A stretch of 64,000 bases of DNA from NCBI GenBank assembly GCA_004123355.1, contig SCHM01000001.1, positions 5,944,001 to 6,008,000 on the forward strand, written 5' to 3'. The position numbers and the translations under genes are program-made. Shown piece by piece: positions 15,059-33,560 of the stretch (within the stretch, counting starts at the first letter, position 1; each line of letters starts with the position of its first letter). Source of the DNA: Amphirosellinia nigrospora (Eukaryota > Ascomycota > Sordariomycetes > Xylariales > Xylariaceae). The notes under the pieces are model-generated. The model had not been told where the DNA came from, ran no database searches, and saw only the letters and a list, made by a program, of their open reading frames with translations.

Positions 15059-16368
15059 TCACGAATCAGCCATCTCGATCTCTATCGTCCTCGTCTCGCG
15101 GGCCACATTATCAACAACGCCATCCATCATCTGGTTTGTGTTGTTGACATCCTCGAGCACTTTTTCTAGTAGAGAGACTAGCGATTCTATCTCGGCACGT
15201 TGACGCTTGATATCTTCGAACAACTTAGCGTTATGGGCCTGTGTTGTTTGTAGTTTTGCATTGAGTTGAGATTGTTGTTGTGCTAAGTGAGGTGCTAGAT
15301 GTGCGTCTAAGACCTCATCTGGTGGTAGTGTATGTGGGCTTGAAATACAATCAGTAAAATATGTATTGGGATTGACTGATTTCGTAAAGAGTCTTGGGTG
15401 TTGCAAAGGCATAAAAGAGAGTGAAAAGCAAGAATCAATCACATAGTTTTTGTTCCAAAAGAAAAAAAGAAAAAAAAGAGAAAGACGGGAAAAACAAAAC
15501 GTACAACACCAGGGATTCGCTGGTCGTCACCGACCCAACTACTAATCTGGCGGTATCTGGCTTAGCTATGGGGAGCGGACGGGACCCCGTTCTCCAGATC
15601 CTATGGTCGTACGTGCTAAGATGCAGCTCAATTACAACTTATAATCGAGTCTCGAAGACAAATGCCCCACTTGACCGAATACCTGTTGGGTCGAAAATAC
15701 AGAAATGAAAGTGACGTGACTTACGGTACCGGAGGATCCGCCCCACCACCACCCGCCGCTTTCCGCCTGCGCTCCGCTTCGCTCACCAGAGTCTCGAGCT
15801 CATTGAGCTTCGCGACAACATTACGCGCTTCTTGTATAGAGTCGAATTCTTTCTGCAAAATGTTAGCAAGCAACCCCCGTGCTGTTTGTGTGTGTAATAG
15901 CATCCTCCTCTTTGTTCACGAATCACAGCGTTCATATGGAGCTCCCGACAACCCAATTCCGATCTTTATAGGTCGTTCGGGTCGAAAAAAAAATGAGAGG
16001 GCAGCAGAGGGCGGACAACACACCTTGCACAGCGAACGCAAGCGATCCACCATCTGCGACTGCACGGCCCGTAATGTTGCCGGCGCGTGCGCCGCGATGT
16101 GAGGGTAGCACGCCGCGAAGTTGTCCCAGCTGATCTTGGCCAGCGTGTGTGAGAGCGCCGAGTCGAGCGTCGCCTGGAACCGTGAGGCACGCGGGCCGGG
16201 GGTCAGTGCCGTGTGTCGTGCTGGTAGGGGTGGTGATGCGGGAGCTTCTTCTGGTTGTGGTTGTTGTGATTGTTGTTGCTCTTGCTGCTGTGGTTCGGTC
16301 GCCTCTTGATCGCCTTGCAGCTGGGGTTTTGGATTGATTTTCGGCACAGGTTGCGGTTCCGGCGCCAT
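15059..16368 (-). CDS. NNF1: Kinetochore protein Nnf1 (MIND/Mis12 complex)
   Basis: Subunit of the Mtw1/Mis12 complex that links centromeric chromatin to the Ndc80 complex. Exons on the minus strand: 16368-16024, 15852-15725, 15338-15059. The phases agree and there is no frame break. The N-terminus is Pro/Gln-rich. The Nnf1 core begins at about residue 60 (RFQATLDSALSHTLAKISWDNFAACYP), continues with MVDRLRSLCK and KEFDSIQEARNVVAKLNELE, and ends in a coiled coil (QQSQLNAKLQTTQAHNAKLF). Total length is about 250 residues, normal for the family. The first intron is 171 nt and the second 386 nt, longer than most here. Confidence 0.82.
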
Positions 16369-32384: not shown

Positions 32385-33428
32385 TCAAGGACCCGTCTTG
32401 TACCCTCTAACCTGTCTTCAACCTTGACAGCCTCAACTCCTTCACTGTCTCACAGTTCATAGACCCTTGTTACCAAACTCCAGAGTCTATCATGGAGAAA
32501 TATTAGGGTTATCCGATCAGCTTTTAGATAGATGTAGCATACCAAAGCAAATTACACTACACCTAATGTTAGTAGCCTCAATAAACTCGACCAGAAAAGT
32601 CTCAGTAACTGTAACAAGGGTTTTTGTGAAGGGTTTAGAAAGCATCAACCTATAGAGTCAAGAGTGTCATGAAGGCATATTTCCTCGTTTTATTTGAAAG
32701 CAGAGATTCTAGTCTATATACCCCAGGGCTTCCTCTCTGTCTTGGAGTACGGGGGCCAGAAGCCATACTCGGGTACTCCATAGAGTCCGAGACCTTTACC
32801 TATGTAGCCACGGGTAACACTGCCTGTGCAGATACATGTGACAGTAACATCGTTGAGCTCAACTTCAAAGGGGTGGTGGAGTACGTATGCTACACTAAGG
32901 CAAATAGTAGGCGAGAATGTTCAAAACCCTAGCCATCAACTTGTTCTAAATTGTGCGATATTCGGCTTTTATGCCAGTATTTAGCGGTAGGCGGGTTTCT
33001 TGCATACCTCTAGTTGGTCTCGATTATACACTACAATCTTATTTAGCCGGTGACCATCTACAACATAACACAAGACTTGCTCTATAACTTTCAATGTTTT
33101 TATGAAAACTTTATAGCTTGCCTCGCTTATTGACACCTTCAATTGAAGTCAGTAGGTACAGCACCGGCCCCTATTTTACGTCAACATGAATATGTATTTG
33201 CAGAGTGGAATTCTGTAAATGACATGCTTACAAATCCCTTGTCGCGGCAAATGCCTAGATACTTTGCACTGTTCTCTGTCGGGACCGAGGCATTGACTTA
33301 TTTTCAACCTTGCGACTGCGCGAATACAAGGAAGAAGAAATAAAAAAAAAAGAAAATAAAACTTGAGGAAAAAAAGAGAGAAAAGAAGAGGCTGCTATTC
33401 CCAGTGAGCTGGGAAGCATCAGGAATTG
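32385..33428. other. Intergenic region; Pol III terminator-like T runs near its end
   Basis: No gene recognised. On the minus strand, T4 at 33381-33384 and T7 at 33369-33375 lie 45-60 nt beyond the tRNA 3' end and could terminate Pol III. 33340-33390 is purine-rich on the plus strand. Confidence 0.45.
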
Positions 33429-33560
33429 AGCCCGATGCGGGGGTCGAACCTAGTCGAGGTCATCAGTATTTTTTTTACTCAAGTATGATCTGAATATCAT
33501 GTACTCACCCGCAACCTTGAGATTAAGAGTCTCACGCTCTACCGATTGAGCTAACCGGGC
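33429..33560 (-). tRNA. tRNA-Lys(CTT) with a 59-bp insertion in the T arm
   Basis: Minus strand, 5' end at 33560. Acceptor stem GCCCGGT/ATCGGGC, D stem GCTC/GAGC, anticodon stem TGAGA/TCTCA with loop CTCTTAA (anticodon CTT), and variable loop AGGTT are all perfect. The T stem begins GCGG, is interrupted by 59 bp (33450-33508), then continues GTTCGACCCCCGC. Removing the insert gives a 73-nt tRNA with a perfect 5-bp T stem GCGGG/CCCGC and a 7-nt loop. There is no normal intron at position 37/38. The last G of the insert recreates GGTTCGA, so the B box remains intact and the gene could still be transcribed by Pol III. Whether the RNA is spliced is unknown; otherwise this is an interrupted pseudogene. 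Confidence 0.85.
33450..33508 (-). other. Spliceosomal-intron-like insert inside tRNA-Lys
   Basis: 59 nt beginning GTGAGT and ending ACTAG, with TACTGATGAC (branch-point-like CTGAT) 14-20 nt before the 3' end. Length and all three signals match protein-gene introns in this window. It also contains an ATGAT/ATCAT hairpin and an A8 run. It lies between T-stem nucleotides 52 and 53. Confidence 0.7.

Follow-up and report, generated by a model that had tools for sequence, protein, structure and literature searches.

Probable spliceosomal introns in nuclear tRNA-Lys(CTT) and tRNA-Ile(AAT) genes of the fungus Amphirosellinia nigrospora

Introns of the spliceosomal type occur in mRNAs and in some genes for U6, U3 and rRNA, and the introns of nuclear tRNA genes are processed by a separate endonuclease and ligase. 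Can a nuclear tRNA gene carry an intron of the mRNA type? The question is raised by a tRNA-Lys(CTT) gene of A. nigrospora, located on the minus strand at positions 33429..33560 of a 64,000-nt stretch of contig SCHM01000001.1 (the whole stretch is referred to here as the window). The gene consists of 73 nt of exon sequence and a 59-nt insert. We consider it very likely that this insert, lying in a nuclear Pol III gene, represents a U2-type spliceosomal intron, that the gene is one of five tRNA-Lys(CTT) genes interrupted in this way, and that a tRNA-Ile(AAT) gene carries another such intron between nt 28 and 29. This was the first of the readings offered in an earlier note on this DNA, and it is favored by the five paralogues, whose inserts are unrelated and have kept their signals, and by the similar insert of the tRNA-Ile gene.

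The window gene was recognized by its match to the tRNA model RF00005 (cmscan against Rfam; 33429-33560, minus strand, 52.0 bits, E 5.2e-10, model positions 1-71) and by the identity of its exons with those of three other genes (L001-L003). In the model alignment every stem is paired and the surplus bases are placed in the T loop; no Rfam family besides tRNA matches the gene at E values up to 1. BLAST revealed that the 73 nt remaining after removal of positions 33450-33508 match three uninterrupted tRNA-Lys(CTT) genes elsewhere in the genome without a single difference, which bears out the claim of the earlier note, whose coordinates and sequence are correct, that all stems are perfect once the insert is taken out. 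ARAGORN (bacterial code) found no tRNA anywhere in the 64,000-nt window, and, if the inserts are introns, tRNA finders that expect them at 37/38 alone can miss genes of this kind. The scans of viral and of bacterial/archaeal contigs gave no match, as expected for a fungal gene.

The 5′ exon (33509..33560, minus strand; tRNA nt 1-52), delimited by sequence and BLAST, contains (i) the 5′ strand of the acceptor stem, (ii) the D arm, (iii) the anticodon arm, (iv) the variable loop and (v) nt 49-52 of the T stem, and the 3′ exon (33429..33449) comprises nt 53-73. The putative intron between them (33450..33508), as read from the sequence, begins with the donor site GTGAGT (33503..33508), ends with the acceptor CTAG (33450..33453) and contains a branch-site-like ACTGAT (33462..33467) that starts 18 nt from the intron end. 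The start, the end and a branch motif 14-20 nt before the end had been described correctly in the earlier note.

The intron is located at the border of the T stem and T loop, and both its first and its last base are G. This placement and the initial G leave the T stem (GCGGG/CCCGC) able to form before splicing as well. The A-box region TAGCTCAATCGGTAGAGC (33536..33553) was found by exact pattern matching. The sequence GGTTCGACCCC (33440..33450), which we take to act as the B box of the promoter, has as its first G the last base of the intron; GGTTCGA is therefore complete at the DNA level in the split gene, and the B box survives as had been proposed. The site would be favored because the acceptor G regenerates this box. 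With all its stems, an A box, a B box and a downstream T-run, the window copy has the features expected of a Pol III tRNA gene. The window also contains a 5S rRNA gene (15498-15614, minus strand; 85.6 bits, full model).

When the joined 73-nt tRNA was used as a BLAST query against the genome itself (48.1 Mb, 11 contigs), nine places were found: (i) three uninterrupted, mutually identical tRNA-Lys(CTT) genes (L001-L003), (ii) four loci (L009-L012, of which L011 is the window gene) showing identity over nt 1-54, where the BLAST alignment ends, and (iii) two diverged places (L013 and L014). Five of the eight complete genes found (L009-L013) are split between nt 52 and 53, each with a 3′ exon after the insert. 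The position, whose distance from 37/38 had been pointed out from the window gene, is thus the same in all five, and the proposed count of tRNA-Lys(CTT) genes comes to three uninterrupted and five split ones, the window gene included. One split gene lies a few hundred bases from tRNA-Ser(aga) and tRNA-Pro(agg), in a small cluster (L013 and L023; C5:3030425-3031146).

The exons of the split genes share 95-100% identity and are sound in three of the five. Those of the window gene and L010 carry no change, and L009 differs at a single acceptor-stem position, where a G-U pair is retained. One C of the CCCCC that follows TTCGA is missing from L012, and L013 has three changes (one in the D stem, a deletion and one in the T stem). 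L014 consists of a 5′ half that has decayed and continues into GTGAGT; the following 1.5 kb contain no 3′ exon. It could be argued from this damage that the split copies all go back to one interrupted ancestor and are pseudogenes, their inserts never being removed while the uninterrupted trio supplies the tRNA; indeed, the split genes may be dispensable, since three uninterrupted genes give the same product. According to the accessible part of the review of Yoshihisa (2014; PMC4090602), eukaryotic D- and T-arm insertions are found mostly in one of many synonymous genes and supposedly mark pseudogenes, except in nucleomorphs and a red alga. We nevertheless regard this explanation as improbable. 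Accumulated exon changes, seen in L012, L013 and L014, are absent from the window copy and from L010, and the one in L009 is compatible with pairing; the T-runs are retained; five copies of eight are more than one stray; and the tRNA-Ile gene has a similar insert. The earlier note had named as adverse signs the existence of several intact genes elsewhere together with mutations accumulating in the window copy; the intact genes exist (three), but the mutations do not.

The inserts themselves also argue against decay, since their sequences have diverged to the level of shuffled ones and yet all three splice signals are held. The five Lys inserts (L009-L013) are 63, 59, 59, 55 and 63 nt long, respectively. 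The donor is GTGAGT in four and GTAAGC in one, a branch-like motif ACTRA(C/T) (ACTAAC, ACTGAC or ACTGAT) is present in all five, 18, 18, 18, 14 and 18 nt from the insert end, and every insert ends with AG followed by a G that is part of the B box. In pairwise comparisons the whole inserts gave z values of 1.0 to 4.4, and the interiors (ten pairs) gave values of -0.5 to 2.2, which is the shuffle level. The chance occurrence of the branch motif was estimated by shuffling the interior of each insert and searching 10-30 nt before its end. The strict motif appeared in 2.4-4.9% of shuffles per insert (product 6e-8, a figure that treats as independent loci which, being paralogues, are not), and the looser CTRAY in 7-12% (product 1e-5, independence again being overstated if the inserts share an ancestor). 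Splice motifs retained amid randomized interiors are a sign of selection, to judge from these comparisons, and the best reading of the inserts is as putative spliceosomal introns in tRNA genes that are kept under selection for splicing.

The first AG after the presumed branch site is also the presumed acceptor in L010, L011, L013 and the tRNA-Ile insert. There is a minimum distance from the branch site for the use of an acceptor; in L009 and L012 another AG precedes the presumed acceptor, only some 6-7 nt away from the branch A (distances counted by hand), which is perhaps too close for use. In L009, whose insert ends with GAAG, a CTTAG is located about 7 nt past the presumed branch A. Runs of at least four T are absent from four of the five Lys inserts and from the Ile insert; the insert of L010 contains a T5 run, which might stop Pol III. 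The L010 intron (C4:1512398-1512456, minus strand) also contains a second B-box-like sequence, CGTTCGACC, besides the B box at the junction.

The same inserts bear on the possibility that a mobile intron, or introner, was recently inserted into several tRNA genes. Intron families have spread in the related family Hypoxylaceae, as reported in the accessible part of PMC8469720. However, the five Lys inserts are unlike each other and none has a second copy in the genome, each matching only itself, which argues against a selfish element; the selfish insert suggested as one reading in the earlier note is accordingly disfavored. A single old gain, or a single loss in the uninterrupted group, fits better, and we consider a recent mobile insertion extremely unlikely.

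Among other tRNAs with GT...AG inserts, for which the earlier note had recommended a search, is a tRNA-Ile(AAT) gene (L080 756-903 = C4:4204260-4204407, minus strand; a 148-nt tRNA match, read by eye) with two inserts. Its order is 29 nt, a 52-nt insert (GTATGTTCATCC...TTACTAACCCACCCTAG), GTACTAATA, 22 nt at 37/38 and the remainder. The 52-nt insert (GTATGT...TACTAAC...CCCTAG) separates nt 28 from nt 29, within the anticodon stem, and its branch motif ACTAAC lies 15 nt before the insert end. The ends of this insert can be slid by a few bases, with GTA on both sides, and the GT-AG boundaries are the chosen ones. By shuffling, the strict branch motif is expected in 4% and TACTAAC in 0.6% of cases. 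Without both inserts the gene yields a 74-nt tRNA with four stems and the anticodon loop CTAATAA (by eye); in the predicted free fold of this sequence the T and anticodon stems pair and the D arm differs. No second Ile(AAT) copy was found among the extracted loci with the 5′ start, the anticodon loop and the 3′ end as queries. The gene thus carries an ordinary 37/38 insert alongside one of the spliceosomal type. Taken together, the sequences make it likely that the T-arm inserts of tRNA-Lys(CTT) and the anticodon-stem insert of tRNA-Ile(AAT) are true spliceosomal introns that are removed from Pol III precursors.

A GT donor, an AG acceptor and a branch motif at the usual distance, as in U2-type introns, are present in both the Lys and the Ile inserts. 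The Lys inserts (55-63 nt) have no group I/II catalytic core, and in L001 and L009 no Rfam family besides tRNA was detected at E values up to 5. The canonical site of the tRNA splicing endonuclease, 37/38, differs from that of the Lys inserts (52/53) and of the 52-nt Ile insert (28/29). We therefore asked how the endonuclease could account for them: it would have to remove inserts at a non-canonical position, as it does in nucleomorphs and in Cyanidioschyzon according to the accessible part of PMC4090602, where spliced T-arm inserts of nucleomorphs are described. In the predicted precursor folds of L009 and L011 (with the standard 3′ exon throughout) the T stem is paired, which counts in favor of this route. 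A full central helix is found in only one of the five Lys inserts (L009, with two wobbles; P 0.11) and in none for tRNA-Ile, which speaks against it. A strict bulge-helix-bulge has four pairs in one of the five Lys inserts, 2-3 in the other four and three in the Ile insert, a comparison with little power, since the 37/38 controls have three (Ile) and four (Lys-TTT). The stronger argument comes from the position and the splice signals, which outweigh this test; the endonuclease leaves the donor and branch motifs unexplained, and its involvement here seems very unlikely.

For comparison with the introns of mRNAs, five introns in three genes of the window were placed with the aid of protein relatives (best matches 84-92% identical, from Xylaria species). 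These introns are 52, 60, 75, 77 and 99 nt long (one counted by hand). Their branch-like motifs lie 12-28 nt from the intron end, with an additional candidate at 33 nt; the intron AMSH_2 was read by hand. The lengths and branch distances of the tRNA inserts fall inside the range of these five. The mRNA donors are GTCTGT, GTGAGT, GTAAGT, GTAATT and GTACGG; three of them (GTCTGT, GTAATT and GTACGG) are of other types than those of the Lys inserts, and the local donor consensus is therefore loose.

A Pol III gene of the same genome provides a further parallel. A U6 snRNA gene (L043 1501-1651, minus strand) contains, as read from its sequence, a 51-nt insert after ACAGAGAAGAT, GTAAGC...GTACTAAC...CACAG, with the branch motif ACTAAC; it is by all appearances a spliceosomal intron of the same type as the tRNA inserts. 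A B-box-like sequence, AGTTCGAGTC, occurs within this intron. A second, diverged U6-like copy (L044 1501-1599, plus strand) is without an intron. No clear spliceosomal insert was observed in the U3 or the SRP RNA of the genome, and the 5′ part of U3 has no large insert.

How many more tRNA genes are split in this way? In the genome search with RF00005, 63 of 1644 candidates were scored and gave 58 matches, which do not include the window and Ile genes; 50 of these were read fully and the other eight (L029-L035) were judged by their length (70-74 nt) and 3′ ends. A custom tRNA model (built from 17 sequences, of which three had been stripped of inserts), run against 74 sequence sources with L096-L123 left out, gave 52 matches, none of them an additional tRNA seemingly split by a spliceosomal-type insert. 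Eleven loci (L016-L026) contain tRNAs of at least 91 nt, all with T arms intact by eye; ARAGORN, with introns allowed, assigned the additional nucleotides to the anticodon loop or the variable arm. They include a tRNA-Lys(TTT) gene, whose T arm is identical to that of Lys(CTT).

Two pattern searches were also performed. The pattern TCGAACCTN{38,68}ACTYAC gave 19 matches against 24 in the reversed control; four are the Lys genes and the other 15 showed no tRNA by eye. GTAAG or GTGAG, N{40,70} and AGGTTCRANYC gave four and ten matches, respectively (controls 16 and 3), five of these 14 being the Lys genes; the other nine include two ordinary-looking tRNAs, and the remainder were judged by the matched letters alone. 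Within these limited insert lengths and T-loop sequences, no tRNA split at 52/53 was found beyond the five Lys genes. A scan for the A box gave 37 matches (control 22), of which 30 have a locus: the eight known Lys genes and 22 others, in which 152 nt after the box were read. No further T-arm split was detected among these 30 loci, one of which is L014. Four loci (L075, L082, L087 and L092) and, presumably, six A-box matches on contig C9 represent dispersed tRNA-derived, SINE-like repeats; the four loci begin with GCCCGGTTAGCTCAGT, which nearly matches the first bases of tRNA-Lys(CTT), and two of them (L075 and L087) terminate in a B box plus GCGGCAGTAGATGAGACG. Since the census of tRNAs is partial and the Ile gene was discovered by chance, the genome may well contain more split tRNA genes.

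The flanks of the Lys genes were also compared. In the window gene, the 3′ trailer up to the first T-run (33381..33428, minus strand; the structured region is given as 33381-33438), defined by alignment and pair counts in eight genes, contains CCTGATGC, a complement of the final part of the 3′ exon, the hairpin TTCCCAG-CTCA-CTGGGAA, GCAGC and T-runs. In all eight Lys genes the first run of at least four T lies 39-44 nt past the tRNA, compared with a median of 9 nt in 23 other tRNA loci, some of them uncertain as genes. The trailer sequence CCYGATGC, an 8-nt complement of GCATCGGG in the 3′ exon, is present in six of the eight genes, is one base off in L012 and is lost in L013. In the hairpin, which is followed by GC(A/G)(A/G)C, four of six pairs have changed on both sides, a value equalled in 8 of 500 shuffles, and standard pairs fill 91% of the pair cells, a share that falls to 33-51% if the 3′ partners are shifted by 1-3 columns. 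A comparison of the trailer with Rfam gave no family besides tRNA. Since genes with and without the intron share this structure, it does not serve the intron as such; it may promote termination by Pol III or slow the processing of the ends. A hairpin also follows six tRNA-Ala(AGC)-like genes (L031, L035 and L114-L117), where it is T-arm-like and reads GGAGG-TTCAATT-CCTCC or is a weaker remnant of this.

In all three uninterrupted genes the leader ends with GCT and the trailer reads CCCGATGCC...GCAACGA. The leader of the split genes ends with ACAAC or ACGAC in three of five (e.g. ...ACAACGAC, then GCCC), and CCTG occupies the corresponding place of the trailer in four of five. Some upstream similarity is shared by the uninterrupted copies (z 3.0-6.3, partly due to CAG repeats) and none by the split ones. 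Leader and trailer together suggest that the Lys genes form two groups, uninterrupted and split. Two histories could account for this pattern: a single gain that preceded the spread of the split genes, or a single loss that preceded the spread of the uninterrupted ones.

As far as titles, abstracts and passages of the open-access literature show, spliceosomal introns have not been reported from nuclear tRNA genes; the earlier note, too, knew of no described nuclear fungal tRNA with such an intron. Known systems resemble the present one in part. U6 introns of this kind are known from fission yeast (S. pombe) and other fungi; they too are short GT-AG introns with a branch site in a Pol III gene, but their host RNA is U6 and not a tRNA. 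A fungal U6 intron can itself carry a B box, whereas the Lys intron merely completes one. The spliceosomal introns known from ascomycete nuclear rRNA genes are likewise mRNA-type introns in non-coding RNA genes not transcribed by Pol II, but they interrupt a Pol I transcript and not a tRNA. The anticodon-loop introns at 37/38, present in other tRNAs of this genome and in the Ile gene as well, interrupt nuclear tRNA genes too; the Lys and Ile inserts differ from them in position and in their donor, branch and acceptor signals.

Fungal U3 snoRNA genes, as described in the accessible part of PMC5832005, contain normal spliceosomal introns in a small structured RNA, though in a different host RNA, and the U3 of this genome is without a large 5′ insert; the same portion of this paper (Canzler et al. 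2017) names U3 and U6 as the sole small structured RNAs in which interruptions are known to be frequent. The tRNA genes of nucleomorphs and of a red alga are also eukaryotic and split in the T arm or other unusual places, but there the tRNA endonuclease excises the introns, which have bulge-helix-bulge motifs in the red alga and are 3-24 nt long in Guillardia (PMC4090602, accessible part), against 52-63 nt and donor, branch and acceptor signals here. That part of the review contains no word beginning with "spliceosom".

The reading of the inserts as spliceosomal introns draws on their positions, their signals and the retention of these in five Lys inserts, on the promoter boxes, on the exons that are sound in three of five genes and on the U6 intron. 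Transcription, splicing, the order of the steps and the function of the product would then be as follows. Pol III would rely on the A box and on GGTTCGA as the B box, to which the intron of the Lys genes contributes its last G, and transcribe as far as the T-runs, which lie 39-44 nt beyond the tRNA. Donor, CTRAY branch site and AG acceptor would be recognized by the spliceosome, which would join nt 52 to 53 in tRNA-Lys and 28 to 29 in tRNA-Ile. Maturation of the ends and, for tRNA-Ile, the usual cut at 37/38 would come next, as in other tRNAs.

If this is true, the split arrangement is old enough for the intron interiors to have been randomized, and a Pol III transcript that folds fast and leaves the nucleus is still open to the spliceosome. 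One tRNA-Ile precursor would need both splicing machines. Such genes would offer a natural system in which to ask by what route a Pol III transcript gains access to the spliceosome and in what way an essential structured RNA acquires introns, and spliceosome-dependent tRNA families would join two splicing worlds. The sequences suggest that in A. nigrospora the mRNA splicing machinery also helps to make tRNAs, in which case part of the tRNA supply of this lineage would depend on the pre-mRNA spliceosome.
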